Shown: positions 3,804 to 20,327 of the stretch, in pieces
Layout of the letters: each line of letters starts with the position of its first letter
How positions within the stretch are numbered: the stretch's first letter is position 1
Assembly: GCA_014801225.1 (NCBI GenBank)
Contig: JAAVEO010000038.1
Span: forward strand, 26,388-90,387
Direction: 5' to 3'
Source of the DNA: Bacteroides sp.
GTDB lineage: Bacteria; Bacteroidota; Bacteroidia; Bacteroidales; Muribaculaceae
Length of the DNA stretch: 64,000 bases
Made by a program: the position numbers and the translations under genes
The notes under the pieces: generated by a model
Told to the model about the DNA's origin: nothing
Seen by the model: only the letters and a program-made list of their open reading frames with translations
The model's database searches: none

Positions 3804-3835
3804 GTTGTCTACTTCCCTAAATTTTTTTAATTTTG
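3804..3835 (+). promoter_or_regulatory. Bacteroidetes-type promoter (-33 GTTG, -7 TAATTTTG) for the structured leader/defence operon
   Basis: GTTG 3804-3807, 20-nt spacer, TAATTTTG 3828-3835 (consensus TAnnTTTG); predicted start about 3841. Confidence 0.7.
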
Positions 3836-3840
3836 CATTT

Positions 3841-4224
3841 GAACCCCGCGATGTGTGGTGCCTCAGAGGAGGGTAAACGCCGGGCATTGGGTGGTTCGTT
3901 TACATACGAAAGGCGTTTACTGCGCTTTATTTCTTGGCTCCTTGAAACCTGAGAAACTTCAATACTATAGTCAAGAATGAAGCAATAGTAGATGCCCTCG
4001 GGTACGTCTGTGTACCTTCTGACTCAATTTGAAAGAAATTGGGGAAGAGGGTCTGCATATACATACTTCGCGGGGTCATTTACCATTGCTCATTCTACTA
4101 TAGTGGGCAAATTCTCAGGGCCTCAAGGAGCGGAATGAGCAAGTGATGGCTCCCGCTTTTCGTTTATATCCACCCTGAAGAATTGCCATTTGGAGTCAAT
4201 GGCTGAGAAGCGACAGACCCCAAC
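3841..4224 (+). ncRNA. Highly structured RNA: 5' leader of the defence operon or independent ncRNA, family unknown
   Basis: Nested perfect stems: 3873-3881/3912-3920; 3937-3945/4123-4131; 3948-3955/4112-4119; 3964-3971/4097-4104; 3974-3980/4090-4096; 3982-3986/4085-4089; hairpins 4001-4005/4012-4016, 4023-4030/4036-4043, 4185-4190/4198-4203. Confidence 0.75.
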
Positions 4225-7200
4225 GTGCAACTGAAGCTGATTGATAACATAACTAATACCTTGAAGACGGATTTGATGACTACCATCAAATCAGGCAGTC
4301 GTATATCTATTGCGGCGGCAAGTTTTTCAATTTATGCATTTCAAGAACTTCGCGAGCAATTAAAAGATATTGAAGAGTTACGTTTTATCTTCACCTCCCC
4401 CTCGTTCGTCACGGAAAAGTCGGATAAACAGCGCCGTGAGTTTTATATTCCCCGGCTAAATCGTGAACGTAATCTTTTCGGATCCGAATTTGAGATAAAA
4501 CTCCGCAATGAGTTGTCGTTGAAGGCCGTCGCAAAGGAATGTGCCGAATGGATCCGGGAAAAAGTATGTTTCAAGTCCAATCGCACCAATGCGGGTATGC
4601 CCGCTTTTGCAACCGTTGACGATACGACATATATGCCTCTCAACGGTTTTACAACTGTCGAGCTCGGATGTGAGCGTGGCAACAATCTTGCGACGGCCAT
4701 AACTAAGATGGAGGCTTCCTTCACTCAGCAATATCTACAGATTTTCAATCAGATTTGGAATGACAGCGGACAGTTGCAGGTAGTGACAGAACAGGTGCTT
4801 GATCACATTACCAACGCCTACAAGGAGAATTCCCCGGAATTTATCTATTTCGTAACCCTTTATAATATCTTCAACGAGTTTCTTGAAGATATTTCGGAAG
4901 ATGTACTCCCGAATGAGGCGACCGGTTTCAAATCAAGCGTCATTTGGAATAAACTATATAATTTCCAGAAGGATGCGGCACTTGCCATCATCAATAAACT
5001 CGAAAAGTATAACGGTTGTATCCTTGCCGACTCCGTAGGCCTTGGCAAGACTTTTACGGCATTATCCGTAATCAAATATTACGAGAACCGCAATAAGTCG
5101 GTACTTGTATTATGTCCGAAGAAACTTCACGACAACTGGGTAACTTATCGCAGCAACTACAAGAACAATCCCCTTGTTGCTGACCGTCTGCGCTATGATA
5201 TACTGTATCATACCGATTTGTCGCGTCAGTCCGGTCAAAGCAACGGTCTTGACCTACAACATATCAACTGGGGCAATTACGACCTTGTTGTCATTGACGA
5301 GAGTCATAATTTTCGTAACGGAGGAAAAGTCACTACAGACGAGAACAACGAAAATCCGCGAGAGAACCGCTATCTTCAGTTGATGAATAAGGTGATCCGG
5401 TCCGGGGTAAAGACCAAAGTGCTGATGCTTTCCGCTACGCCTGTCAATAACCGTTTCGCTGACCTGCGCAATCAACTCGCGCTTGCCTACGAGGGTGACA
5501 GTTCCAGGATGGATGCACAGCTCAAGACCTCAAGCTCTCTCGACGATATATTCCGGCAAGCTCAGACTGCCTTCAATAAATGGGCGAAATTTCCGGCAGA
5601 GCAGCGTACTACAAATTCCCTGCTTGAAATGCTTGGTTTCGACTTTTTCGAGGTTCTGGACAGCGTTACAATCGCGAGAAGTCGCCGTCATATAGAGCAA
5701 TATTACGACACTACCGATATTGGGAAATTCCCCGAAAGATTAAAACCGATATCCTTGCGTCCGAATCTTACCGACCTTCCTAAAAGCGTTGATTTCAATG
5801 ATATCTTTAATAGTGTCAGCGAGCTCAACCTTGCTATCTATACCCCCTCCGATTTTATTCTGTCGAGCAAATTGGATAAATACTCCGAGGCGCGCGAAGA
5901 TGGACGATTTGGTAATCTTTCTCGTTCCGGGCGCGAACGGGGTATCCGTCAATTAATGAGCATCAATCTGCTCAAACGTCTGGAAAGTTCGGTTAACTCT
6001 TTCCGTCTCACGCTTGAAAGGATTAAGAAATATATTGCCACAACTATTGAGGCTATAGACGCTATTATTACCCGTCATGAGGTTTCGATGGTCTGTGACT
6101 ATGATTTTTCCTTTGGTCTTGATTTCGATGAAAGAGAGGATACTGTCTTTATCGGAAATAAGAAGACCAAGATTGACCTTGAGGATATGGATTATATCCA
6201 ATGGCGAAGTTATCTTGCCAAAGACCTTGACAATCTGAATATGCTTCTCTGCATGCTCGGCGACATTACACCCGAACACGACAGCAAGTTGCAGAAGCTC
6301 ATTGAAGTTGTCTTTAATAAGATTGAGCATCCTGTCAATGGCGACAATAAGAAAATCATTATCTTCACCGCCTTTTCCGACACTGCCCGATACCTCTATG
6401 ATAACGTCGCACCGCTTATCAAACAGCATAAAGGACTTGATACAGCCCTTGTATCCGGAGATGTGGAGGCTCGGTCCACATTGAAACTACGTGAGAAACT
6501 CGATTTCAATAAAGTGCTCACACTATTTTCGCCGGTATCGAAAGACCGTGACACACTATATCCCGATGTCAAAGAGGAAATAGATATCCTTATTGCCACC
6601 GACTGCATCTCCGAAGGTCAGAATCTTCAAGATTGCGACTATCTGATTAATTACGACATTCATTGGAATCCGGTACGTATCATTCAGCGTTTCGGACGAA
6701 TTGACCGTATCGGTTCGCAGAATGATAAGATACAGCTTGTCAATTTCTGGCCGGATATGGATCTTGACGATTACATTGATCTGAAAGGGCGAGTGGAGGC
6801 GCGAATGAAGGTGTCGGTGCTGACATCCACAGGAGACGACAACCCGCTTTCAGCAGAGGAACAAGGCGATCTGAAATACCGTCGCGACCAGTTGGAGCGT
6901 CTGAAAGAGGAGGTGGTCGATATTGAGGAAATGAATACGGGCGTTTCAATCATGGATTTGGGGCTAAACGAATTCCGCCTTGACCTGCTGGAGTATATGC
7001 GTACCGGCATAGATATCGAGCATACACCTATGGGGCTCCACGCAATCGTCCCCACAAGTGCAGAAGCGCCCAAAGGCGTGATATTTGTATTGAAGAACCG
7101 CAACAACGATATCAATATCGACAAGAAGAATCGCCTGCACCCGTTCTATATGGTCTATATATCGCAAGACTCCGAGGTGATAGTCAATCATCTTGACCCG

Positions 7201-7470
7201 AAGGGGCTTCTCGATCGCATGCGTCACCTTTGCCGTGGCAAGTCTGAACCAATACTTGACCTCTGTCGCAAGTTCAATGCCGAGACTCGCGACGGTCAAC
7301 GCATGGGCACATACTCCCGACTTCTCGGCGATGCAATCTCCTCGCTTATAGCAACCAAAGAGACCACCGACCTCTTCTCATTCCTTGACGGCGACAGCGG
7401 CTCACTCTTCGGCAACGAAGTGCGCGGTCTCGATGATTTTGAGTTAATTTGTTTCCTAATCGTGCGCTGA
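4225..7470 (+). CDS. PLD-like N-terminal region fused to SNF2-type helicase (defence-associated)
   Basis: GTG start; GCILADSVGLGKTFTA (Walker A/motif I), VVIDESHNFRN (DEAH-like), LSATPVNN, IATDCISEGQNLQ...IQRFGRIDRIGSQ (motifs V/VI); N-terminus resembles PLD-like anti-phage helicases (SIAAASFSIYAFQEL..FIFTSPSFV). Confidence 0.9.
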   Translation: MQLKLIDNITNTLKTDLMTTIKSGSRISIAAASFSIYAFQELREQLKDIEELRFIFTSPSFVTEKSDKQRREFYIPRLNRERNLFGSEFEIKLRNELSLKAVAKECAEWIREKVCFKSNRTNAGMPAFATVDDTTYMPLNGFTTVELGCERGNNLATAITKMEASFTQQYLQIFNQIWNDSGQLQVVTEQVLDHITNAYKENSPEFIYFVTLYNIFNEFLEDISEDVLPNEATGFKSSVIWNKLYNFQKDAALAIINKLEKYNGCILADSVGLGKTFTALSVIKYYENRNKSVLVLCPKKLHDNWVTYRSNYKNNPLVADRLRYDILYHTDLSRQSGQSNGLDLQHINWGNYDLVVIDESHNFRNGGKVTTDENNENPRENRYLQLMNKVIRSGVKTKVLMLSATPVNNRFADLRNQLALAYEGDSSRMDAQLKTSSSLDDIFRQAQTAFNKWAKFPAEQRTTNSLLEMLGFDFFEVLDSVTIARSRRHIEQYYDTTDIGKFPERLKPISLRPNLTDLPKSVDFNDIFNSVSELNLAIYTPSDFILSSKLDKYSEAREDGRFGNLSRSGRERGIRQLMSINLLKRLESSVNSFRLTLERIKKYIATTIEAIDAIITRHEVSMVCDYDFSFGLDFDEREDTVFIGNKKTKIDLEDMDYIQWRSYLAKDLDNLNMLLCMLGDITPEHDSKLQKLIEVVFNKIEHPVNGDNKKIIIFTAFSDTARYLYDNVAPLIKQHKGLDTALVSGDVEARSTLKLREKLDFNKVLTLFSPVSKDRDTLYPDVKEEIDILIATDCISEGQNLQDCDYLINYDIHWNPVRIIQRFGRIDRIGSQNDKIQLVNFWPDMDLDDYIDLKGRVEARMKVSVLTSTGDDNPLSAEEQGDLKYRRDQLERLKEEVVDIEEMNTGVSIMDLGLNEFRLDLLEYMRTGIDIEHTPMGLHAIVPTSAEAPKGVIFVLKNRNNDINIDKKNRLHPFYMVYISQDSEVIVNHLDPKGLLDRMRHLCRGKSEPILDLCRKFNAETRDGQRMGTYSRLLGDAISSLIATKETTDLFSFLDGDSGSLFGNEVRGLDDFELICFLIVR

Positions 7471-7471
7471 T

Positions 7472-8071
7472 ATGTTAGGTTTACCTCAATCAACCGAAGT
7501 TAAGCGACCGCTTCCAAAGACGCAGCTCTTTAAGCGGTTTGACTGGACAGCATCGCAACGCGAACGTTTTGATGCGGAGGTGTCGCGTCTTGACTTCGTG
7601 AATTGGATTTCACCTCGTACCGTTCCCGCAATTGCTATTGGTCACGAGGTGAATGAGATATTTGTTGTCGAAGTCTCGCTAAAATCGCACGATTTCGACA
7701 CAAAGGCAATCGTACTTCTCGCTAAGTATATTCCTCAGCGCATTATCTATGTTCTGCGCTTCGGGGGCGAGGCTATGCTTGCCGCATATCATGGCAAACT
7801 TTTCACCGCTCCTTGGCAATCTTTAGATGCTATCTCTTTAACCCTGTCAGGTCTCAATCTTGATGCCGTTTGGGAAAACATAGTTTCCACAATCGGTCAG
7901 TTCTCAGTTGAGCAGGATAAGTCCCTCAATGAGCAAATCAAGATTGACGAAGACCGTGCCAAACTTGAACGTCAGATTGCTGCTTTGGAGCGTCAGATGA
8001 ACGTTACCAAACAGCCGCGCCGCAAACGTGAATTATTCGTTGAACTTCAAAAACTGAAATCTCATGTATGA
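7472..8071 (+). CDS. DUF4391 domain-containing protein
   Basis: LPKTQLFKRFDWTASQRERFDAEVSRLDFVNWISPRTVP...; immediately follows helicase. Confidence 0.85.
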   Translation: MLGLPQSTEVKRPLPKTQLFKRFDWTASQRERFDAEVSRLDFVNWISPRTVPAIAIGHEVNEIFVVEVSLKSHDFDTKAIVLLAKYIPQRIIYVLRFGGEAMLAAYHGKLFTAPWQSLDAISLTLSGLNLDAVWENIVSTIGQFSVEQDKSLNEQIKIDEDRAKLERQIAALERQMNVTKQPRRKRELFVELQKLKSHV

Positions 8072-9065
8072 TGATATTGTAACAGATACTGCCAACGAAG
8101 AGAGGATAGGAGTAAGTGCAATTTCCTTAGCCTTTGAAAAGTTAGGATGGTCTTTGCGAGAACGTACTCATTCTGATTTTGGAATAGATGCAGATGTAGA
8201 ACAAAAAATTAATGGTTGTCGCACAAATTCTCATATTGCGCTACAAATAAAATCAGGGAAATCTTATACACGCATCAAGAAGAACGGAAAGATCTCATTT
8301 GAATTTGATGATAATCATTTTTATTACTGGTTATCATCAGATAGACCTGTTCTATTAATGATGTATGATAAGGATTCCGATAAAATATTTTGGGAGCAAA
8401 TTCGTCTTCCACTATTAAAATTTAATAAGTCGAAGACAAAGCATATAATTGAGATTCCTGCTACCAACGAATTATCAGCTTCGAGCTTGGAAGAATTTAA
8501 TAATATAATTGATACTTATATTCCTCATTATGAATATAATATTACTGAGGAAGATACTAAGTTCGAGTGTGCTGAAATATATTTGCATCAATATAGCACC
8601 GGTATAGAGGGATTAGTTAATAGTCTGGCAAAGTTTAGGGAGGATATAAAAACCTTATTTCAAAATCCCAATGCTGATAGATTAAAGATTTATCTTGAAC
8701 TTTTTTCAAAGTCCGTCAAAGACCATACAGAGGAAGATTACAAAAATCTCAAAAAGGCTTGGTTTTATCTTGCATATATGGTATTTGTAATCCCCGAAGA
8801 AGTCAGAGCCGATTACAGTAATGTAATAGATGAATATGCGGAGAACTTATTGCTCCAAAAAGCTACTTGGTTATTTAATATTGAGAACTTCAAGAAACTA
8901 TATCATACCAATATACCTCACAAGGTTCAGTACGCTGCTAAACGACTCGTTTCCATCTTAGAACAGTATGTTAGTTTGATTGATATATCAGTAGATGATT
9001 TCTTAATGTGTAAAATACAAAACGAAAACATCATAAATGGAAAAACTACGAATGAAAAGCCTTGA
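8064..9065 (+). CDS. DUF4365 domain-containing protein (PD-(D/E)XK-like nuclease fold expected)
   Basis: RTHSDFGIDADVEQ...HIALQIKSGKSY matches DUF4365 core D..xQxKSG; overlaps both neighbours. Confidence 0.8.
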   Translation: MYDDIVTDTANEERIGVSAISLAFEKLGWSLRERTHSDFGIDADVEQKINGCRTNSHIALQIKSGKSYTRIKKNGKISFEFDDNHFYYWLSSDRPVLLMMYDKDSDKIFWEQIRLPLLKFNKSKTKHIIEIPATNELSASSLEEFNNIIDTYIPHYEYNITEEDTKFECAEIYLHQYSTGIEGLVNSLAKFREDIKTLFQNPNADRLKIYLELFSKSVKDHTEEDYKNLKKAWFYLAYMVFVIPEEVRADYSNVIDEYAENLLLQKATWLFNIENFKKLYHTNIPHKVQYAAKRLVSILEQYVSLIDISVDDFLMCKIQNENIINGKTTNEKP

Positions 9066-11007
9066 CACGGTTGACGGGAATGTGGCTAAAATAGCTGCGC
9101 TATTCCCTCATTGCGTCACTGAGCACAAAGGCAAGGACGGCACCGCCGAACTTGCCATTGACTTTGACAAACTTCGCGCAGAGTTGTCAAAGGATGTTCT
9201 CGACGAGGGCGAAGAACGCTATCAGTTCACTTGGCCTGATAAGCGTGCTGCTTCTCGTCTCGCAAATACGCCTACTGATAAGACTCTCCGTCCTGATGTA
9301 GAGGCCTCCAAAGATTTCTGGAACACAGAGAATCTTTATATTGAGGGCGACAATCTCGATGTGCTGAAAGTTCTCCGCGAGAACTATCTCGGCAAAATCA
9401 AAATGATCTACATTGACCCTCCCTATAATACCGGCAATGACTTCGTTTATAACGATGACTTCACACAGGGTAAGGAAGACTTCGAGGTAACCAGCGGACT
9501 TTTCGATGAGGATGGTAATCAAGTTCTTGACCCGATGCAACGCAATACCGAAGCCAACGGTCGTTTCCATACCGATTGGCTTAATATGATTTACCCCCGT
9601 CTGAAAATAGCCAGAGATTTGCTTACAGAAGATGGTGTAATTTTTATCTCAATTGGAGAGGAAGAAATCCATAATTTGAAAAAAGTTTCCGACGAAATTT
9701 TTGGTGCAGAAAATTTCAGAAACTCATTCATTACAAGACGATATGACAAAAATCTTAATCGTCAATTTATGGATGCGGGTCTTCAAACTTTTAATATCGG
9801 GTTTGAATATATATTGTGTTATTCAAAAAAGGCATTCTCTTTTACTCCAGTATTTAGAGAAGCCTCAGAAGAAAGACAATCATTTGGCTACTGGAAAGGA
9901 TTCTGGAATGATGCTGATAGACCTACTATGAGATATGACATATTAGGGTTTACTCCTGAAAAAGGTCAATGGAAGTGGAAGCAGGATGTTGCACAGGAAG
10001 CAGTTGAAAACTATAAGACTTATGTTGATAAGTTTAGCAATACCATGTCTCTTGAAGAATATTGGGAAAAAACGGGTAAATGTAAAAAATTCATTCGTCG
10101 AAACCCCAATGGGAAAGGTAAAAACGCCGGGGTTGAAAATTGGATTGCTCCGACCGATTCCGTTCTTCGTAATACAAACTGGTTAGATTTACTTGCTTCA
10201 AAAAATGATAGCACTACACAAGGTCTATTTGATTTTCCTAAAAATGTAGATGTAATCAAACTTATACTTGAGGCAGGAGCAGACAAGGAGGCAACAGTCC
10301 TAGACTTCTTCAGCGGAAGTGCCACGACTGCGCATGCCGTTATGAAACTCAACGCAGAGGACGGCGGCAAGCGTAAGTTCATAATGGTGCAGCTACCCGA
10401 AGTCACCAATGAAAAGAGCGAGGCTCGTAAGGCTGGCTATGAAACCATCTGCCAAATAGGAGAAGAGCGTATCCGCCGTGCTGGCGATAAGATTCTCACG
10501 AATCTTTTGTCTGGTGCTGGTAGAGTTGATGGAACAGGATATGGGTGTGGAATAGATAATTATGAAGAATATGTCGAATCAACAGGAGACCGTGTACTTG
10601 ACACCGGCTTCCGCGTCCTCAAACTTGACTCGTCGAATATGGAGGATGTGTTCTATACTCCTGAAGATTTCAACGAGCAGGATCTGTTTAACTACGTTGA
10701 CAATGTGAAGCCTGACCGCACGCCGCTTGATTTGCTGTTCCAAGTACTGCCCGAACTCGGCATCGAACTCTCCGCCAAGATTGAGGAGAAGGATGTCAAT
10801 GGTAAAAAGGTCTTTTTCGTTGACGGCACTTATCTCATCGCTACGTTCGACATCGAAGTAAACGAGTCCACTGTTACCGAAATAGCCAAAATGCAACCGC
10901 AATACTTCGTAATGCGTGATGCGTCTGCCGCCAACGATAACGTTCTCGATAACTTCGAGCAAATCTTCAAACATTATTCCCCCGACACTATCTGCAAAAT
11001 CTTGTAA
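9037..11007 (+). CDS. mod: Type III restriction-modification DNA methyltransferase (Mod), N6-adenine, beta class
   Basis: IYIDPPYNTGNDFVYNDDF (motif IV DPPY) followed later by VLDFFSGSATTAHAVM (motif I); canonical type III Mod N-terminus (GNVAKIAALFPHCVTE). Confidence 0.93.
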   Translation: MEKLRMKSLDTVDGNVAKIAALFPHCVTEHKGKDGTAELAIDFDKLRAELSKDVLDEGEERYQFTWPDKRAASRLANTPTDKTLRPDVEASKDFWNTENLYIEGDNLDVLKVLRENYLGKIKMIYIDPPYNTGNDFVYNDDFTQGKEDFEVTSGLFDEDGNQVLDPMQRNTEANGRFHTDWLNMIYPRLKIARDLLTEDGVIFISIGEEEIHNLKKVSDEIFGAENFRNSFITRRYDKNLNRQFMDAGLQTFNIGFEYILCYSKKAFSFTPVFREASEERQSFGYWKGFWNDADRPTMRYDILGFTPEKGQWKWKQDVAQEAVENYKTYVDKFSNTMSLEEYWEKTGKCKKFIRRNPNGKGKNAGVENWIAPTDSVLRNTNWLDLLASKNDSTTQGLFDFPKNVDVIKLILEAGADKEATVLDFFSGSATTAHAVMKLNAEDGGKRKFIMVQLPEVTNEKSEARKAGYETICQIGEERIRRAGDKILTNLLSGAGRVDGTGYGCGIDNYEEYVESTGDRVLDTGFRVLKLDSSNMEDVFYTPEDFNEQDLFNYVDNVKPDRTPLDLLFQVLPELGIELSAKIEEKDVNGKKVFFVDGTYLIATFDIEVNESTVTEIAKMQPQYFVMRDASAANDNVLDNFEQIFKHYSPDTICKIL

Positions 11008-11014
11008 GTCGCAA

Positions 11015-12229
11015 ATGGATAATACAAACCTGATTCGAAATATCATCTCAAATAATAATGATAATATCGCATTCTTGATAGGTAATGGCATCCATTACCA
11101 ATTCAAGGACTGTGAGTTACCGTGGGATGAACTATTAAAAAAGCTTTGGCGTGAGTATGTTGATGATAGGGATGCTCTATTAGGTGATATGTCATTGACT
11201 GAAATATATGATATCGTAGAAATGAGCGCTATAGAAAGGCACTGTGAGGAGGAGTACAAACGTTTAATAGAAGCTTTAAAAAGTCCTTCATCTACGGAAT
11301 TCAAGGATACTTTAGGCGATCCTCGGAAGGACTTGTCTCGAATAGTCCAAAATTTAGCCCAAAAATCGTCCAATACACCTTTCGATAATAAAAAAATAGA
11401 CCGTGAGATATTAGAAAAATTTCAGAAAACTAATCAAGAATGGGTTCATTTTTGTAGGGAATGGTGCCGTTCAAATATTGATGGTTATGAATCTCTCACT
11501 GATGAACAATGTGTAAATGAGTTGTTCTCCTTGTTAGAAAATTCTTCTAAGCAGCAAATATTTAGAAATTCTCTAAAAAGAGAGGTAGCAGAAATGTTCC
11601 CTTCAAAGAAAATTTACAAGTTAGCTGAGTGCATATCCTATATCAAAGGGTTAAATGTTCCTATTTTAACAACAAATTTCGATACTTATATGAGTGATTC
11701 CGTAGGAGCGAAACGCTTCATCAATAACACGGAAGATCAACTGTATAAGTTCACAGACTTTTACCCATGGAATGTTTATTATAGTAATAATAAACTAAAT
11801 GAAAATATATTGGATAATTTTGGAATATGGCATATTAATGGCATGACTGACTATCCAAGAAGTATCAGATTAGGCTTAAGTGACTATATGGGCTGTGTTG
11901 AGCGAGCACGAGTGATGATACAGGGAAATAACCTTAATGAATATTTCACTGGAAAAAGAAAATCAAATTGGAAAGGCTATAATACATGGCTGCACATTCT
12001 TTTCAATAAAAATCTTTTCATCTTTGGTCTCGCTTTGGAACAAAATGAAGTATTTCTTAGATGGTTGCTTATACAGCGGGCAAAGTATAGCCGTCTATAT
12101 AATCTCAACCTAAATGGTTGGTATATAGGCAAAGGTATACCGGAAGGGAAAAGATATTTTCTGGAATTTTTAGGATTTGAAGTTGTTGAGCTTTCGAATT
12201 ATAATGAACTTTATCAGGCATTGAAATAG
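11015..12229 (+). CDS. SIR2-like family protein (putative NAD+ hydrolysing defence effector)
   Basis: NDNIAFLIGNGIHYQF, VPILTTNFDTY, GIWHINGMTDYPRSIRLGLSDYMG, LFIFGLALEQNEVFLRWLL; start M at 11015, 8 nt after mod stop (the ORF track start at 10916 lies inside mod). Confidence 0.85.
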   Translation: MDNTNLIRNIISNNNDNIAFLIGNGIHYQFKDCELPWDELLKKLWREYVDDRDALLGDMSLTEIYDIVEMSAIERHCEEEYKRLIEALKSPSSTEFKDTLGDPRKDLSRIVQNLAQKSSNTPFDNKKIDREILEKFQKTNQEWVHFCREWCRSNIDGYESLTDEQCVNELFSLLENSSKQQIFRNSLKREVAEMFPSKKIYKLAECISYIKGLNVPILTTNFDTYMSDSVGAKRFINNTEDQLYKFTDFYPWNVYYSNNKLNENILDNFGIWHINGMTDYPRSIRLGLSDYMGCVERARVMIQGNNLNEYFTGKRKSNWKGYNTWLHILFNKNLFIFGLALEQNEVFLRWLLIQRAKYSRLYNLNLNGWYIGKGIPEGKRYFLEFLGFEVVELSNYNELYQALK

Positions 12230-15200
12230 ATGAAATTCAAATTTAAAATACAAGGCTATCAGACCGAGGCTGTCGATAATACAACTGCTATCTTCACCGG
12301 TCAACTTAATCGCGATAACACACACTACCGCCGCGACTTGGGTAAACTTACCGCAGGTACCATGCGCGAGATGCTTGACGATGACGGCTACCGCAATGCT
12401 GATATTGAGCTTTCTTCGAAGCAACTGCTCGATAATCTTCACTCCGTTCAGACTGCCGCCGGTGTGCCGCTCTCCAAATCTCTCAGCAAGATCGACGGCT
12501 TGGGTGCCGTCAACCTTGATGTCGAGATGGAGACAGGTACGGGTAAGACTTACGTATATATCAAGACGATGTTTGAACTTAACAAGCTCTACGGTTGGTC
12601 GAAGTTCATCATCGTTGTGCCGAGTATCGCTATCCGTGAGGGTGTAGCGAAATCCTTCCGTATGCTTGAAGATCACTTCATGGAGCAGTACGGAAAGAAA
12701 GCACGTTGGTTCGTCTATAACAGCTCGAACCTCAATCAACTCGATCAGTTCTCACAGGATGCAGGGCTTAACGTGATGATAATAAATACTCAGGCGTTTG
12801 CCTCCTCACTCAAAGAGGGAAGTCGGTCAAAGGAGAGCCGAATAATTTACTCGAAGCGTGACGAGTTCGCTTCGCGTCGTCCGATCGACGTGATTGCGGC
12901 CAACCGCCCGATTATCATAATGGACGAACCTCAAAGAATGGAGGGAGCTGCTACACAATCCGCTCTCAAAAAATTCAATCCCCTGTTCGTATTGAATTAT
13001 TCCGCTACCCACCGCACAAGACATGATACTGTCTATGCACTTGACGCTCTGGACGCTTACCGCGAGCGCCTTGTCAAGCGTATCAAAGTAATCGGTTTTG
13101 AACTTAAGAACCTACCGGGCACCAACGGCTACATGTATCTCGAAGATATAGTCCTGTCTTCAACCAAACCTCCGATGGCACGCATATCTATTGAAGTCAA
13201 GAACGCCGCCGGCGAACCTCGCCGCCATTTCAAGACCTTTGGAGTAGGGGATTCCCTTTTCATAGCCTCAAATGAATTGGAGGAATATCGTGGCTACGAT
13301 ATTGCTGAAATCAATCCCGGCACTGCCTCACATCCTGTAGGATTTGTAACGTTTACCAACGGCGTAACGCTGCGCAAAGGCGACATCATAGGCGAATCCA
13401 ACGAACTGCACATGCAGCGCGTTCAGATTCGCGAGACGATTAAGGCTCACTTCGAGAAGGAACGCCGGTTGTTCAAGAAAGGGATCAAGTGTCTCTCACT
13501 CTTCTTCATTGATGAAGTGGCGAAATACCGCAAGTATGACGAGAACGGCGAACCTGTCAAGGGCATATTCCAAACCATCTTTGAAGAGGAATATTCTCGC
13601 CTCGTCAATGAAGAGATCAATATCTTTGATGAGGAATACAATGAGTATCTGCGTCGTTTCAGTCCCTCTCAGACGCATCGCGGCTATTTCTCCATTGACA
13701 AGAAAGGGAAGATGGTTGATAGCAAGACCAAACGCGGTTCTGATGTCAGCGAGGAGGCCTCTGACTATGATCTAATTCTCCGGGATAAGGAGCGTCTGCT
13801 GAGTTTTGAAGAACCGACACGTTTCATCTTCTCACACTCCGCTCTGCGCGAGGGCTGGGACAATCCGAACGTATTCCAGATTTGCACACTGCGCCATAGT
13901 AATTCCACTACTACCAAACGTCAGGAGGTTGGGCGTGGCTTGCGTATAGCCGTTGACCGCAATGGTATCCGTCAGGATAAAGAACTGCTTGGCGATAACG
14001 TTCACGACATAAATGTGCTTACAGTGATCGCCAACGAGAGTTATGCAGATTTTACCGGTGGGTTGCAGAAGGAGACTCGTGAGGCTTTGCGTGAACGCGC
14101 CACGAAAGCATCTACCGACTATTTCAAGGGTAAGAGCATTACTCTCGACGGTCAGCCTCATATCGTTTCAGATACAGAGGCAAGCCGCATAATGATCTAC
14201 CTTGAAGATAATGGATATATAGACGATGCCGGTAACATCACCCCGAAGTACCATGCCGATGTAGCTGCTGAGGCTGTTGCTCCCTATGGTAAGCAACTTG
14301 AACCGATGGCAGAGGGCGTGACGCTGTTGATTAACTCTATCTTCGACCCGAATCTGCTTAAAGAGATGACAGGGGACGGAAACAAGACCAAATTGCCTGA
14401 GCCAAGACTTAACGCGAATTTCGCCAAGCCGGAATTTCAGGCACTTTGGAAGGCGATCAACCATCAATATGTATATACCGTAAGTTACGACACTGCCGAG
14501 TTGATCAATAATGCAATTCTGCACCTCAACACTGATGAATTGCAGGTGAGAAAACTAAGGTATATCAAGATAGTTGGCGAACAAGATAAAGAGAATGTTG
14601 ATGAATATGGAAATACGAAATCCACAACAGACGAATTGACGGATGTTTCCACATCAACCGTAAGATATGATCTTATCGGCCTGATTGCCAAGGGATCCAA
14701 TATCACGCGCCGAACTGCCGCCAAGATTCTTCAAGGGTTGTCTTACGCGAAGCTCGCCTTGTTCCGTAACAATCCCGAAGAATTTATCCGCAAAGTAGTT
14801 AAGATTATCCGAGAGCAGAAAGCGACTATGATAGTGGATCATATACACTATCATCTGACAGATGGCAAGTATGACTCCGATATCTTCACCGCTGTAAGCC
14901 GGGCAGACTTCGACAAAGCTGTTCAGACATCTAAACATATCACTGACTACGTTGTATCAGACAGTAAGGGTGAGCGGGATTTCGCCCACGATCTTGATGA
15001 AGCCGATGAAGTGGTTGTGTACGCAAAGTTGCCTCGATCGTTTGCTATCCCCACCCCGGTAGGTAATTATGCACCCGATTGGGCGATAGCGATGCAAAAA
15101 GGCGATGTAAAGCACATCTTCTTTATCGCCGAGACTAAAGGATCTCTACAGTCAATGCAAATAAGCGCCCTTGAGAATGCGAAGATTGATTGCTGCACAC

Positions 15201-15292
15201 AACTCTTCCGGGAAATTTCGACTGATAAAGTCAAGTATCATAAAGTCACCTGCTATCAAGACTTGATAGATGCAATGACATCTGTAAAATAA
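12230..15292 (+). CDS. res: Type III restriction endonuclease subunit (Res), DEAD/DEAH helicase plus PD-(D/E)XK
   Basis: VEMETGTGKTYVYIKT, IIIMDEPQRMEG, REGWDNPNVFQICTLR, C-terminal NYAPDWAIA...FFIAETKGS (PD..ExK). Confidence 0.93.
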   Translation: MKFKFKIQGYQTEAVDNTTAIFTGQLNRDNTHYRRDLGKLTAGTMREMLDDDGYRNADIELSSKQLLDNLHSVQTAAGVPLSKSLSKIDGLGAVNLDVEMETGTGKTYVYIKTMFELNKLYGWSKFIIVVPSIAIREGVAKSFRMLEDHFMEQYGKKARWFVYNSSNLNQLDQFSQDAGLNVMIINTQAFASSLKEGSRSKESRIIYSKRDEFASRRPIDVIAANRPIIIMDEPQRMEGAATQSALKKFNPLFVLNYSATHRTRHDTVYALDALDAYRERLVKRIKVIGFELKNLPGTNGYMYLEDIVLSSTKPPMARISIEVKNAAGEPRRHFKTFGVGDSLFIASNELEEYRGYDIAEINPGTASHPVGFVTFTNGVTLRKGDIIGESNELHMQRVQIRETIKAHFEKERRLFKKGIKCLSLFFIDEVAKYRKYDENGEPVKGIFQTIFEEEYSRLVNEEINIFDEEYNEYLRRFSPSQTHRGYFSIDKKGKMVDSKTKRGSDVSEEASDYDLILRDKERLLSFEEPTRFIFSHSALREGWDNPNVFQICTLRHSNSTTTKRQEVGRGLRIAVDRNGIRQDKELLGDNVHDINVLTVIANESYADFTGGLQKETREALRERATKASTDYFKGKSITLDGQPHIVSDTEASRIMIYLEDNGYIDDAGNITPKYHADVAAEAVAPYGKQLEPMAEGVTLLINSIFDPNLLKEMTGDGNKTKLPEPRLNANFAKPEFQALWKAINHQYVYTVSYDTAELINNAILHLNTDELQVRKLRYIKIVGEQDKENVDEYGNTKSTTDELTDVSTSTVRYDLIGLIAKGSNITRRTAAKILQGLSYAKLALFRNNPEEFIRKVVKIIREQKATMIVDHIHYHLTDGKYDSDIFTAVSRADFDKAVQTSKHITDYVVSDSKGERDFAHDLDEADEVVVYAKLPRSFAIPTPVGNYAPDWAIAMQKGDVKHIFFIAETKGSLQSMQISALENAKIDCCTQLFREISTDKVKYHKVTCYQDLIDAMTSVK

Positions 15293-15452: not shown

Positions 15453-18400
15453 ATGAAATTACTTAAATCCATATTCAGGACGCTTTTTTCAGAAGAAATA
15501 TCTTCACTTCAAAAGCAGATTCAGTCGAAGCAGGAGGCTTTGGCTGAAAAGGAAACAACCATTAGTGAACTCAGGCGCGGGCAGCGACGATTAGTTGCCA
15601 AGATAGATACCTGTCATCAGGAAATTTCCAATTTGAAAAATCAGGCAAATACACTTCGGGGAACAATATCAGCAAAGGACACCGAATTATCTGCCAAGAA
15701 TCAGAGAATAATTGTTCTTGACCGGACTCTGTCCGAAAAGAAATCCGAATCTGAGCACGATAAGGTGCTTATTAGTGATTATCGACAGCAAATTGACAGT
15801 CTTGAGGTTGCCAAGAAAGAATTAGAGCAACTTATTGAAAATCAAAAACAACTTATTCAAGAAAATGATACTCAGACTCAGCAATTAGAAAATAACCTAA
15901 GACTTGCGAAAGAACAACTCGAGAACTCAATCTCTCAGAAGTCAGCTCTTGAAACCAAATTGCAGGATTTGACTCAAAAAATAGGTGAGGCTCAAAGAAT
16001 CATATCTGAAACAGAGAAAGAGGTTATTGAAAAAAACGATAGTCTTCTTGCAAAAGAGACAGAATTGACGGAATTGAGAAAAGTCGAGAAGTCTCTTGAA
16101 GAAGAAGTGAACAGATTGACCGGCTCATTGTCTGAAAGCAATAGTCAGATGGATATTCTTACATCCAGAAATGATCTTTTAGAGGCTGACAAGCAAAAGC
16201 TGCAAGCTAAGCTTAATGAGCTTAAAAATCAATCTTTCGATGAGGAATTATTGACTGCTCTAAAAAATGATGTCAAGCAAAAACAAGAATACATATCCGG
16301 TCTTGAAGTAGACATTCAACATCTAAATGAAGAGCTTTCTTCCATCCGAAATAAGAATAGAGAATCGAATAATCTGCTCAATGAGAAAATACGTGAGTGC
16401 GATGATCTAAAGAAGGAATTGCAATCTATCTCCGCACAATATGAAGCAGTCCAAAGTACCGAAAAAGCTCTCGCACAAGCTAAAGCACGAATTGGAGAAC
16501 TGGAAAATGCATTAAAAAATGCCCCAACACTCAGTGAACTGATTAAACGAGACAAAGAAATTGAAAGGCTTAAATCTAAGATTAGGGAATATGAAATTAA
16601 AATAGCGGAATTATCGAAACCTACCTCCGATGAACCGGAACAAGAGCCTGTTCAGGCTGAGCCCTCAACTCAGACTGGTAAAAGTGAACCGAAGACAACC
16701 ACTAAGGCTCGGTACAGGAAATTTCATTTCCCATATCGAAAAAAAACGATTGCCCCATCAAAAGATGTTGTCACGGTAGATTTTCCTATAATCGAAAATG
16801 ATAACGTCTATTCTCAGACGGCCAGACTGATAGACAAGGTATTCAATCATCGTTCAAACTCTTTTATTACGGCTAACGATATATTCCTACACAAGTCTGT
16901 AGAAGAAATGTCGCGAATGAGATTTGAACTTGAAGAAGCATTGCGAACCGGAGTGCCCTACCTAACTTGTCCTTGTTGTGGGAATATGGTAAAAATATCA
17001 AGTCGTAGCGTCGGATTTGGATTAAAGAGCAAGGAAGTCCAATTCTTTACTCACGCTGTAAAGAATATCCCTTGCGATCTTAAAAGAGATAATTCCTATA
17101 CTGTAACTATCGATGATGGTGATAGAGACCAGAACGATTTTTCATATTTGAAAGAATTGAGGAATCTATTGGCTAATTCTTTAAGAACAGAACTTAGCCG
17201 TAGCAAAGGCTTATCTGATGTTAAAGATTGGGTGTATATAAACTCAGATGAGTTGCCAACAATGAAAAGGCGACTTGCAGATGTAACTGCAAGATACAAC
17301 GATATTGATGTTGTGTTCGAACTGGTTACACCCACCACTCATGTGGCTCGCGTACATGACCGGGATATTTTCTATCTGATCAACCGCAGACAGGTATTTT
17401 GGATTTTAGGTCTGGAGTCGATTGTTGATTACAATGAATTGAGACGTTCTGTTTCAAAGGATATTTTCTTCACTAACAAACGCAACGTATTTGTATTTGA
17501 CCTTGAAGCCCAGAAAGAATCGAAACGACGTGGGGAGTTGATGCTTAAGTGTAATTGGTTGGACGAAGATGGTGCATGGTATTATCAGATTGAGAAAAAT
17601 GGTAAGAATGGTATTCTAATATCACTTGATCAGATACATTTTGAACAAGATAGTTGCCGTCCATATTTTTATGATGCGGACGAGCCTTTCTACCTAAAAC
17701 ATCCTACAGCAGAACGACCTCTTAAACTATCAAGAGAGAAACTGAAAGAGGAGATCATTGATGCTTGGAATTACGAACAGCAACGAAATCGAGCCATTGA
17801 GGAAATGCTTAGAGAGAATCGTGGTGTAGAAGCATATTCCGATGGTGGTAAATGGGGCTTCAAGTTCGGAGATACAGTCTTCATTGAACCCGTTTTTGAT
17901 TCTAAGCCAATGATGCTTGGAGATTTTGCCAAGGTTGAAAAAGATAGCAAGTTCGGTGTAGTCAACAGATTTGGAGAATATAGATTGCAACCGGATAAGG
18001 ATAATGTTGTTCTTCTTCCTAACGGTTATATTCTATATGCTTCTAAGGAGAATTGGTATTTATTCGGGGTGATCGACCCTCTGACATCATTTGCCTCAAA
18101 TGATGAAGTGATTGTATCTACAATATCGAGACCTTCTTCTATCTATCACCTTACAATCGGGAAGTATCTCTTTAAGGGACAACAACCGGAAGAGTTCTAC
18201 TTTGTTGGTAACGAAATATTCAGAAAGAATAATAATTCCGGGAAATGGAGCCTTTGGCAGTCGAACGGAGAGAAAGTAACAGATGTATACTGGGATAGTA
18301 TTGAATTTACATCAGAGGATAACATTAAGGTCTCAATAAATGGACGAACCCAAATATTGGCACTTGATGGTACTGTCTTAGAGGAACAGAAATATAAATC

Positions 18401-19664
18401 TGAGACAAACCTGCCGAATGGCTATTTTATTGTCGAAACATTTGACGGCCTTTGGGGGATAACAGATAGCGAGGACATCGAAGTATTATCACCAAAATAT
18501 GATGCCATAATCTCCCTTGATGGAAACTGTCTTAAAATTCAACAGGGCAACCGATGGGGTATAATTACCTCAACCGGGGAAGTAATAGCGGCCCCTATCT
18601 ATCATTCCGTTGATAGTTTTGACGGGGAATGTTTTGTTGTTTCGAAACCTGATGAAACAAGAGGTTGGGGCTATTTGTCAGGGAAATTAGATAAAACAGG
18701 TAGACCTGTATCCGAGGTTATTTCAAATACACAGAATGGTGTCTTGATAACTAAATCCTTTGAGAAATACGGATTGGAGAAAGAAGGGAAGGTCATTGTT
18801 CCCCAAATGTACGATAACATCTCTTATTGGGGTGAGGATAAGTATATCGCACAAAAGGATAACAAATTCGGTATCATTGACAGCTGTAACAAGGTTCTTC
18901 TAAACTTCGAGTATTCTTCTATTACCCCGCTCAAAGAAGGGAAGAGTACAATCAAGAGAGGTGCCTTACAGAATGAAATTGACAGTAACCTTAAGATAGT
19001 TGAAGATTTAGTAATCGAACTTCAGGAAGGCTATAAGAAGATAAAACTTAGTGGAAAATGGGGTATCCTTAATCCTCAAGGTCAAGTTATAGTAGATTAT
19101 CAATATGATGAGATAACTACATTCAGAGGACGTTTAGTTGGAATTTTGAATGAACGTCTTATTAAACTTAACGCCTATTATCCATATCGTTTGGCTATGA
19201 AAGCCAAAAATCTTGGGATAGTCGATTCAAGAGATTTGGTTAATTCAGGAGGTGTTAAGTTTCAGATTAAAAGACGTAACAATCCAACGAAAGGGCAAGA
19301 AGAATCTGTGATTCTTATAAACTGGATGTCTTCAATGAAATATCCTATTGTTCAACTTTATGATAAAGACAAACATATTAGACGAGCTAAACATATTGAT
19401 AAACCAACAGATTTTGCTATTGGAGATACTTTTGAAGCCTCTGTAAAATCAATAATAAAAGGTTACGGAGTATCTAAAGGTAAAATAAAAGGTGTTGAAA
19501 TAGTATTGTCCAATGGTATGAAATCATATATTTTTAAAAATGATTTCAAAACATCTGGAATTGACATTACAGCAGTAAATTTGGGTGATAGTTTCAGCGT
19601 AACTAAACTTGGTTACGATGAAGAATTAGATCGTACTCAATGGAGGGTTAAGAGTAAGCATTAA
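15453..19664 (+). CDS. 1403-aa multidomain protein: coiled coil + CoiA/DUF6035-like zinc-finger nuclease-like domain + WG repeats + S1-like C-terminus
   Basis: Heptad-rich residues ~1-390; TCPCCGN...FFTHAVKNIPC; RRLADVTARYNDIDVVFELV...RDIFYLINRRQVFWILG; repeated KWGF/LWGI/RWGI/KWGIL..I.P.YD units; terminal GDTFEASVKSIIKGYGV... Confidence 0.8.
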   Translation: MKLLKSIFRTLFSEEISSLQKQIQSKQEALAEKETTISELRRGQRRLVAKIDTCHQEISNLKNQANTLRGTISAKDTELSAKNQRIIVLDRTLSEKKSESEHDKVLISDYRQQIDSLEVAKKELEQLIENQKQLIQENDTQTQQLENNLRLAKEQLENSISQKSALETKLQDLTQKIGEAQRIISETEKEVIEKNDSLLAKETELTELRKVEKSLEEEVNRLTGSLSESNSQMDILTSRNDLLEADKQKLQAKLNELKNQSFDEELLTALKNDVKQKQEYISGLEVDIQHLNEELSSIRNKNRESNNLLNEKIRECDDLKKELQSISAQYEAVQSTEKALAQAKARIGELENALKNAPTLSELIKRDKEIERLKSKIREYEIKIAELSKPTSDEPEQEPVQAEPSTQTGKSEPKTTTKARYRKFHFPYRKKTIAPSKDVVTVDFPIIENDNVYSQTARLIDKVFNHRSNSFITANDIFLHKSVEEMSRMRFELEEALRTGVPYLTCPCCGNMVKISSRSVGFGLKSKEVQFFTHAVKNIPCDLKRDNSYTVTIDDGDRDQNDFSYLKELRNLLANSLRTELSRSKGLSDVKDWVYINSDELPTMKRRLADVTARYNDIDVVFELVTPTTHVARVHDRDIFYLINRRQVFWILGLESIVDYNELRRSVSKDIFFTNKRNVFVFDLEAQKESKRRGELMLKCNWLDEDGAWYYQIEKNGKNGILISLDQIHFEQDSCRPYFYDADEPFYLKHPTAERPLKLSREKLKEEIIDAWNYEQQRNRAIEEMLRENRGVEAYSDGGKWGFKFGDTVFIEPVFDSKPMMLGDFAKVEKDSKFGVVNRFGEYRLQPDKDNVVLLPNGYILYASKENWYLFGVIDPLTSFASNDEVIVSTISRPSSIYHLTIGKYLFKGQQPEEFYFVGNEIFRKNNNSGKWSLWQSNGEKVTDVYWDSIEFTSEDNIKVSINGRTQILALDGTVLEEQKYKSETNLPNGYFIVETFDGLWGITDSEDIEVLSPKYDAIISLDGNCLKIQQGNRWGIITSTGEVIAAPIYHSVDSFDGECFVVSKPDETRGWGYLSGKLDKTGRPVSEVISNTQNGVLITKSFEKYGLEKEGKVIVPQMYDNISYWGEDKYIAQKDNKFGIIDSCNKVLLNFEYSSITPLKEGKSTIKRGALQNEIDSNLKIVEDLVIELQEGYKKIKLSGKWGILNPQGQVIVDYQYDEITTFRGRLVGILNERLIKLNAYYPYRLAMKAKNLGIVDSRDLVNSGGVKFQIKRRNNPTKGQEESVILINWMSSMKYPIVQLYDKDKHIRRAKHIDKPTDFAIGDTFEASVKSIIKGYGVSKGKIKGVEIVLSNGMKSYIFKNDFKTSGIDITAVNLGDSFSVTKLGYDEELDRTQWRVKSKH

Positions 19665-19730
19665 CTCAAGTACACCTTTTGGAGGTTGTGATTAGGTTGT
19701 AATTTTGCAGAGTAAAGTTGCACTAACTGC
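19655..19730 (+). repeat. 76-bp direct repeat copy R1 (IS-end-like, contains promoter-like TAATTTTG)
   Basis: 72/76 identical by eye to 20252-20327. Confidence 0.85.
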
Positions 19731-19967: not shown

Positions 19968-20234
19968 TTATCCTACGGTAATTATTGGTTGACCGAAGAA
20001 TGAGGAGAGCATAGCGAGTGTGGAAAGAGTGAAATTGTGCTGGCCGCTCAGCCACTTGGTAATTTCACATGGACGCTTACCTACAGCTCTGGCAAACTCA
20101 GCCTTCGACAGGCCTTTCTGCGTCATAATGTCATATATGCGGGTGGATATTGCAAATTCCAAATCTCCCTCTGCTTTAATATGAGGAGGTATTGCCCCTA
20201 CCATGGCATCGAATGTATCGTATGCTGTTTTCAT
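19968..20234 (-). CDS. XRE/HigA-like helix-turn-helix protein (orphan antitoxin-like)
   Basis: MTQKGLSKAEFARAVGKRPCEITKWLSGQHNFTLSTLAML HTH. Confidence 0.8.
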   Translation of the reverse strand: MKTAYDTFDAMVGAIPPHIKAEGDLEFAISTRIYDIMTQKGLSKAEFARAVGKRPCEITKWLSGQHNFTLSTLAMLSSFFGQPIITVG

Positions 20235-20251
20235 ATATCAAAGGTTTTATC

Positions 20252-20327
20252 GTAAGCATTAATTGAAGTACACCTTTTGGAGGTTGCGGTTAGGTTGTAA
20301 TTTTGCAGAGTAAAGTTGCACTAACTG
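20252..20327 (+). repeat. 76-bp direct repeat copy R2, fused to IS30 transposase remnant
   Basis: Same 76-bp sequence as R1 with four differences. Confidence 0.85.

Follow-up and report, generated by a model that had tools for sequence, protein, structure and literature searches.

A pseudoknotted leader RNA in front of diverse accessory genes of gut Bacteroidales, probably an on/off transcription switch

Introduction

In a genome of Bacteroides sp. (Muribaculaceae; assembly GCA_014801225.1, contig JAAVEO010000038.1), a phage-defence operon is preceded by a long region without coding. What does this region do, and does it belong to the defence system? We analysed a stretch of 64,000 nucleotides around it, here called the window, and all positions refer to this stretch. 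A first-pass annotation, made from the sequence alone, had seen a large structured RNA behind its own promoter and had proposed a regulatory leader, an attenuator sensing phage attack or an RNA component of the defence system. The RNA is indeed structured, lies behind its own promoter, has no Rfam family and is probably regulatory. The proposed role in defence or phage sensing did not hold, because unrelated genes are headed by the same RNA. With fair confidence, we regard positions 3841-4203 as one copy of an uncatalogued family of cis-acting leaders of Bacteroidales, with a core of about 260 nt and attenuation as the likeliest mechanism.

Results

Locus and occurrence

The sequence agrees with the promoter proposed in the first-pass annotation, and 3841-4224 is free of coding up to the GTG at 4225, as had been stated (Table 1). 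The helicase that starts there has 1081 aa (PADLOC HKD+Snf2, E 1.6e-121). Around mod, the type III R-M operon holds an inserted DUF4365 gene and a gene for a 437-aa protein (8064-9065 and 10916-12229); a Pfam search with the latter gave no match. After the restriction operon, 15453-19664 encodes a weakly LmuB-like protein of 1403 aa with a coiled coil, DUF7830 and WG repeats. An 86-nt direct repeat (19644-19729 and 20242-20327, 598 nt apart, 91% identity) contains the promoter-like TAATTTTGC and flanks a small antisense ORF (19968-20234). In two genomes of the same genus, a similarity of 77% to the window begins at 3828, the -7 element, and continues through leader and helicase, whereas the upstream flank differs. 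Hence, leader and operon are passed on as one unit.

Table 1 Predicted features of the leader and its operon in window coordinates. A9 is the alignment of the window copy with eight close relatives
Feature	Position	Strand	Description
Bacteroidetes-type promoter	3804-3835	+	GTTG 3804-3807, -7 element TAATTTTG 3828-3835; from sequence
5′ domain	3841-3897	+	Branched hairpin (MFE); helices 91-100% paired in A9, few compensatory pairs
Conserved block	3909-3919	+	AAAGGCGTTTA; AAAGGCG 3909-3915 can pair with CGCTTTT 4154-4160 (P1)
Helix A	3924-3983	+	3924-3927 + 3931-3936 with 3972-3977 + 3980-3983; hairpin, rod 5′ strand in loop
Helix B (rod)	3937-4131	+	3937-3945 with 4123-4131
Helix C	3942-3962	+	Small hairpin 3942-3946/3958-3962, D as loop, overlaps B
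Helix D	3948-4119	+	Loop-loop pseudoknot; CCTGAGAA 3948-3955 with TTCTCAGG 4112-4119
Helix E (rod)	3964-4104	+	3964-3971 with 4097-4104
Helix G	3988-4083	+	Conserved GTAGATGCC 3988-3996 with 4074-4083, variable insert enclosed
Helix H	4086-4142	+	TTGCTCATTC 4086-4095 with GAATGAGCAA 4133-4142; loop holds rod 3′ strand and conserved GGGCAA
Intrinsic-terminator hairpin	4129-4160	+	AGCGG 4129-4133/CCGCT 4153-4157 + TTTT; shares bases with B and H
Post-terminator element	4148-4203	+	GGAGTC 4192-4197, loop of 4185-4189/4199-4203, pairs back to GGCTCC 4148-4153 (terminator 3′ side)
HKD-Snf2 helicase, operon gene 1	4225-7470	+	GTG start; Pfam Helicase_C, SNF2-rel
Later operon genes	7472-15292	+	DUF4391, DUF4365, type III mod, Pfam-less protein, type III res

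The Rfam 15 scan of the window returned nothing credible, only a 17-bit miRNA match (gathering threshold 70), and seven related loci were scanned without a match. The 6S RNA model RF00013 did not match in the genome of the window; the same model matched 5 of 14 control genomes. Thus, the check for 6S or another housekeeping family came out in favour of the leader, and a housekeeping RNA was rejected. Most Bacteroidetes motifs of the 2010 candidate list have Rfam accessions, and the leader matched no Rfam family. In the open-access literature searched, the family is not described; a human-microbiome candidate set with thousands of motifs (PMC8040213) may list a fragment.

With blastn, 12 of 393 Bacteroidales genomes gave matches to the window leader, and the genes around these matches differ widely. 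The 5′ half and the 3′ half of the leader were then represented by separate covariance models (R1 and R2), which were searched independently. R1 matched 72 of the 393 genomes, several of them 6-10 times, and R2 matches followed those of R1 at a consistent spacing in almost all copies. After removal of duplicates, 125 full copies with a core of 212-330 nt (median 258) were obtained. Their sequences are strongly diverged, and the helices are preserved by complementary changes. In the family to which the window belongs, R2 matched 52 of 59 genomes (1-17 matches each), and the copy number varies strongly within genera. The genomes are mostly draft metagenome assemblies, and that of the window is 68% complete. 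Carriers include Muribaculaceae, Prevotellaceae, Barnesiella, Phocaeicola oris and Bacteroides ndongoniae. A phylum-wide draw gave clear matches only inside Bacteroidales; the three matches outside are weak (the E-values of the models are rough).

The plasmid and phage records searched contained no copy. One complete copy lies at 392-635 of an 85-kb IMG/VR contig classed as viral (L217), which may be host contamination. A plasmid or phage element was rejected, as these records gave no match and the viral contig is single. Two same-genus pairs (L085/L086 and L088/L092) have kept the leader together with the same downstream genes, which indicates vertical retention too.

Predicted fold

The extreme structure claimed for the window RNA was confirmed: its fold has -158.4 kcal/mol, dinucleotide shuffles have -111.9 ± 5.8 (z -8.06), and none of 100 shuffles reaches the observed value. 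The rod, the long central pairing of the first-pass annotation, was also borne out. It comprises helices B, D and E, which are kept by compensatory change in relatives, so that the covariation in homologues named as a check is present. We used a cognate test: for two paired segments, the 5′ segment of a copy is expected to match its own 3′ segment more closely than the 3′ segments of the other copies. For the rod, the cognate duplex has a mean of -38.0 kcal/mol, compared with -18.4 for non-cognate duplexes (z about -49), and 98 of 109 copies had the cognate partner in first place. Helices B, D and E also emerged from an unbiased G-test covariation scan (average-product correction), followed by C, A, H and the local terminator hairpin.

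In the 125 copies, helices were further evaluated by a permutation test with weighted sequences and permuted partners; shared ancestry remains in it, and hence its figures are not probabilities. The observed value was reached in 0 of 1000 permutations for B, D, E, A, H or the terminator. The paired fraction is 0.95 for B (0.61 permuted, z 27), which is among the top pairs of the unbiased scan, 0.985 for D (0.76, z 17.7), with compensatory changes, and 0.71 for E (0.47, z 13.7). In A9, 7 of the 8 pairs of E have changed on both sides. Helix A is paired at 0.87 (0.79, z 8.0; 92-100% in A9) and helix H, which is also seen in the unbiased scan, at 0.967 (0.920, z 8.5). In A9, 91.7% of the full pseudoknotted structure is paired, and 23 pairs have changed on both sides. 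When the structures were slid by 1-3 columns, these values fell to 39-47% and 3-7 pairs. The slid controls keep the ancestry yet fail, which counters the ancestry caveat on the permutation figures.

A and H are hairpins whose loops are joined by B, D and E, and both therefore cross the rod. The hairpins flanking the rod covary too. These pseudoknots had been overlooked in the earlier reading. A, H and the rod are predicted to form a double pseudoknot, in which the strands may coexist or alternate. Helix C appears in the unbiased scan (columns 57-71 and 56-72) and is 91% paired in A9. In A9, helix G is paired at 92%, and one of its pairs is compensatory; the helix shows a cognate preference (z -7.6) and is mostly conserved in sequence. 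P1 is 100% paired yet almost invariant in A9, and thus covariation speaks neither for nor against it. The 5′ domain is retained in R-M-associated copies, and most others have another sequence there, as seen in the flanks of all copies.

Other parts of the earlier fold did not survive the comparison. The 5′ hairpin GTAAACGCC/GGCGTTTAC is not conserved, as in A9 its 5′ arm varies and its 3′ arm is almost invariant. The inner pairing of 3972-3986 with 4085-4095 (AGAATGA.GCAAT/ATTGC.TCATTCT) is present in the single-sequence fold; relatives use its arms elsewhere, in A with 3924-3936 and in H with 4133-4142, and some support is left only for a short remnant of 5 bp. The rod-internal hairpins sit in the most variable part and were not confirmed. 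The last hairpin (GCCAT/ATGGC), on the other hand, is borne out in A9. We also considered a strand exchange between A and H and rejected it: a/h′ is unsupported, and a′/h is supported over about 5 bp only. A longer-range helix closing the terminator (GCGTGGG/CCCACGC) was rejected as well, because its high pairing is conserved in sequence without covariation (permutation z 1.5), though a cognate preference was seen.

Terminator

The first-pass annotation had seen no intrinsic terminator before the helicase. A terminator hairpin followed by TTTT, however, forms in 9 of 9 A9 sequences and covaries family-wide. It is 100% paired in A9, with one compensatory change, and 0.84 paired in the 125 copies (0.78 permuted, z 6.5). 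A T-run (at least 6 T in 8 nt) stands at the 3′ end of 113 of the 125 copies; that of the window copy, TTTTCGTTT, is among the weaker ones. Some bases of the hairpin also belong to H and to the end of B, and the arrangement thus has the anatomy of an attenuator. The overlap comprises a few bases only, and all three elements covary.

The pairing of the post-terminator loop back to the terminator has a cognate z of -8.4 in 121 copies, whereas control segments gave +1.8 and +1.7, and it is 90% paired in A9. This pairing is possible only past the terminator, which suggests that the read-through RNA is under selection. In seven loci (L062, L063, L075, L079, L090, L095 and L180), a motif similar to GCCAACGAGAGGATGACCGCGGC, directly behind the terminator, replaces the usual GGAGTC loop.

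Genes behind the leader

In 105 of the 125 copies, the promoter motif TAnnTTTG stands 30-160 nt ahead of the core; downstream of the core it is not enriched. According to simple ORF calls, 105 of 113 nearest downstream genes share the strand of the RNA, at a median distance of 62 nt, whereas this holds for just 66 of 116 nearest upstream genes. The RNA is thus placed as the leader of a co-oriented gene with a predicted promoter upstream, and it carries a conserved folded domain with covariation. This placement strongly supports a predicted action in cis.

The leader fronts diverse accessory genes of gut Bacteroidales, namely those for surface proteins, capsule regulators and phage-defence operons. 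The 113 first downstream genes encode 13 BspA-type LRR proteins, 7 UpxY antiterminators, 5 HKD-Snf2 helicases and 3 type III mod proteins, the rest being mixed; no common pathway emerges among them.

Discussion

The leader family is probably an on/off transcription switch for the genes downstream. The RNA would be transcribed from its own promoter; hairpins A and H would form, and their large loops would pair through B, D and E to give the double pseudoknot. The terminator directly 3′ uses some bases of B and H and should therefore not coexist with the folded core; from this sharing of bases we infer the direction of the switch. A core folded in time, perhaps aided by a ligand or protein as the signal, would block the terminator, and the operon would be read. 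If the core is unfolded, transcription would stop about 60 nt ahead of the first gene. The post-terminator loop that pairs back probably holds the read-through mRNA open or acts on translation. We counted against attenuation the small overlap with the terminator, the weak T-run of the window and the absence of a shared metabolic theme downstream. In nested folding, the rod is favoured by about 24 kcal/mol, and for this reason the exclusion of the terminator could be constitutive, which is a point against switching. Hairpin A is made first, so that kinetics or a factor could decide the fold.

In a rival reading, the leader is a recognition element for UpxY, a processive antiterminator of the NusG type. 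As in the capsule leaders of Bacteroides, the protein would be recruited at the leader and enable RNA polymerase to read past terminators throughout the operon. In a review (PMC7819879), UpxY is described as preventing termination in 5′ leaders. The capsule leaders treated there (Chatzidaki-Livanis et al. 2009) share with our family the occurrence in Bacteroidales, premature termination and surface-related operons, and the 7 copies listed above directly precede an upxY-type gene. However, 14 of 25 RNA-bearing genomes tested, including that of the window, have no UpxY above the cut-off (some genomes are incomplete), UpxY is present in 14 of 21 genomes in which no copy was detected, and most copies head other genes. 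Hence, UpxY as an obligate partner or general factor was rejected by genome co-occurrence, a result that bears on UpxY and not on other antiterminators, and we consider recognition by UpxY unlikely. Little credence is given to purely translational control, in which the fold and the post-terminator loop govern ribosome access and the T-run is incidental. It would account for a conserved loop a short way ahead of the start codon, which has coevolved with the 3′ side of the terminator, but a conserved T-run and a conserved, covarying terminator hairpin are hard to explain without termination; both levels of control could also operate together.

Own promoter and terminator, a rod-like fold and the lack of an Rfam family would suit a stand-alone RNA, trans-acting or 6S-like, that ends at the terminator and adjoins genes by chance. 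The 6S and 6S-Flavo RNAs of Bacteroidetes likewise have a rod-like fold of 200-300 nt. Unlike them, the leader is pseudoknotted, multi-copy and gene-leading, and it matched neither 6S nor other models in the Rfam scans. The co-orientation with the downstream gene and the conserved pairing beyond the terminator also speak against this very improbable reading. Even less can be said for an RNA component or phage sensor of the defence system. In the window and its relatives, the leader does head HKD-Snf2 or type III R-M operons, but only 8 of 113 first downstream genes (5 + 3) are components of this module, and a defence-specific RNA was rejected because the majority of copies precede other genes. 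Ribosome-mediated attenuation through a leader peptide is just as hard to credit. An ATG frame of the window from about 3851 runs into the core; across the leaders, however, ATG frames of at least 8 codons are rarer than in shuffled leaders (44 vs 55 ± 4), the loop lengths of the conserved 5′ hairpin vary by non-multiples of three, and the search for a conserved leader peptide found none.

Attenuation by the leader RNA itself is thus the reading that we carry forward. Like riboswitches and attenuator leaders, the family is a promoter-proximal 5′ leader with a conserved folded domain, many genomic copies and a 3′ terminator that shares bases with this domain. Unlike riboswitches, it has no known aptamer (no Rfam 15 match), a double pseudoknot between two hairpins and a conserved post-terminator loop, and its downstream genes are unusually diverse, without the common metabolic theme of most riboswitches. 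EAR, put and other RNA-based antiterminators are structured leader RNAs that promote read-through of accessory operons and may be comparable in this respect. In contrast to EAR and put, the leader is much larger, has another structure and carries its own terminator directly attached.

Our best reading is a new riboswitch-like class of attenuators that moves with accessory operons and would respond to a putative ligand. A wider proposal, that the double-pseudoknot leader with its own terminator defines a widespread RNA-controlled accessory regulon of horizontally variable operons (adhesins, capsule regulators and restriction systems) under one putative ligand or factor, is tentative and may well prove wrong. 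With about 260 nt, pseudoknots, up to 17 model matches per genome and no entry in Rfam, the RNA would rank among the larger uncatalogued leader RNAs of bacteria. The family offers a defined target for ligand searches, structure determination and transcription assays. It would mean that one decision at the RNA level governs surface variation, capsule control and restriction in a dominant group of gut bacteria.
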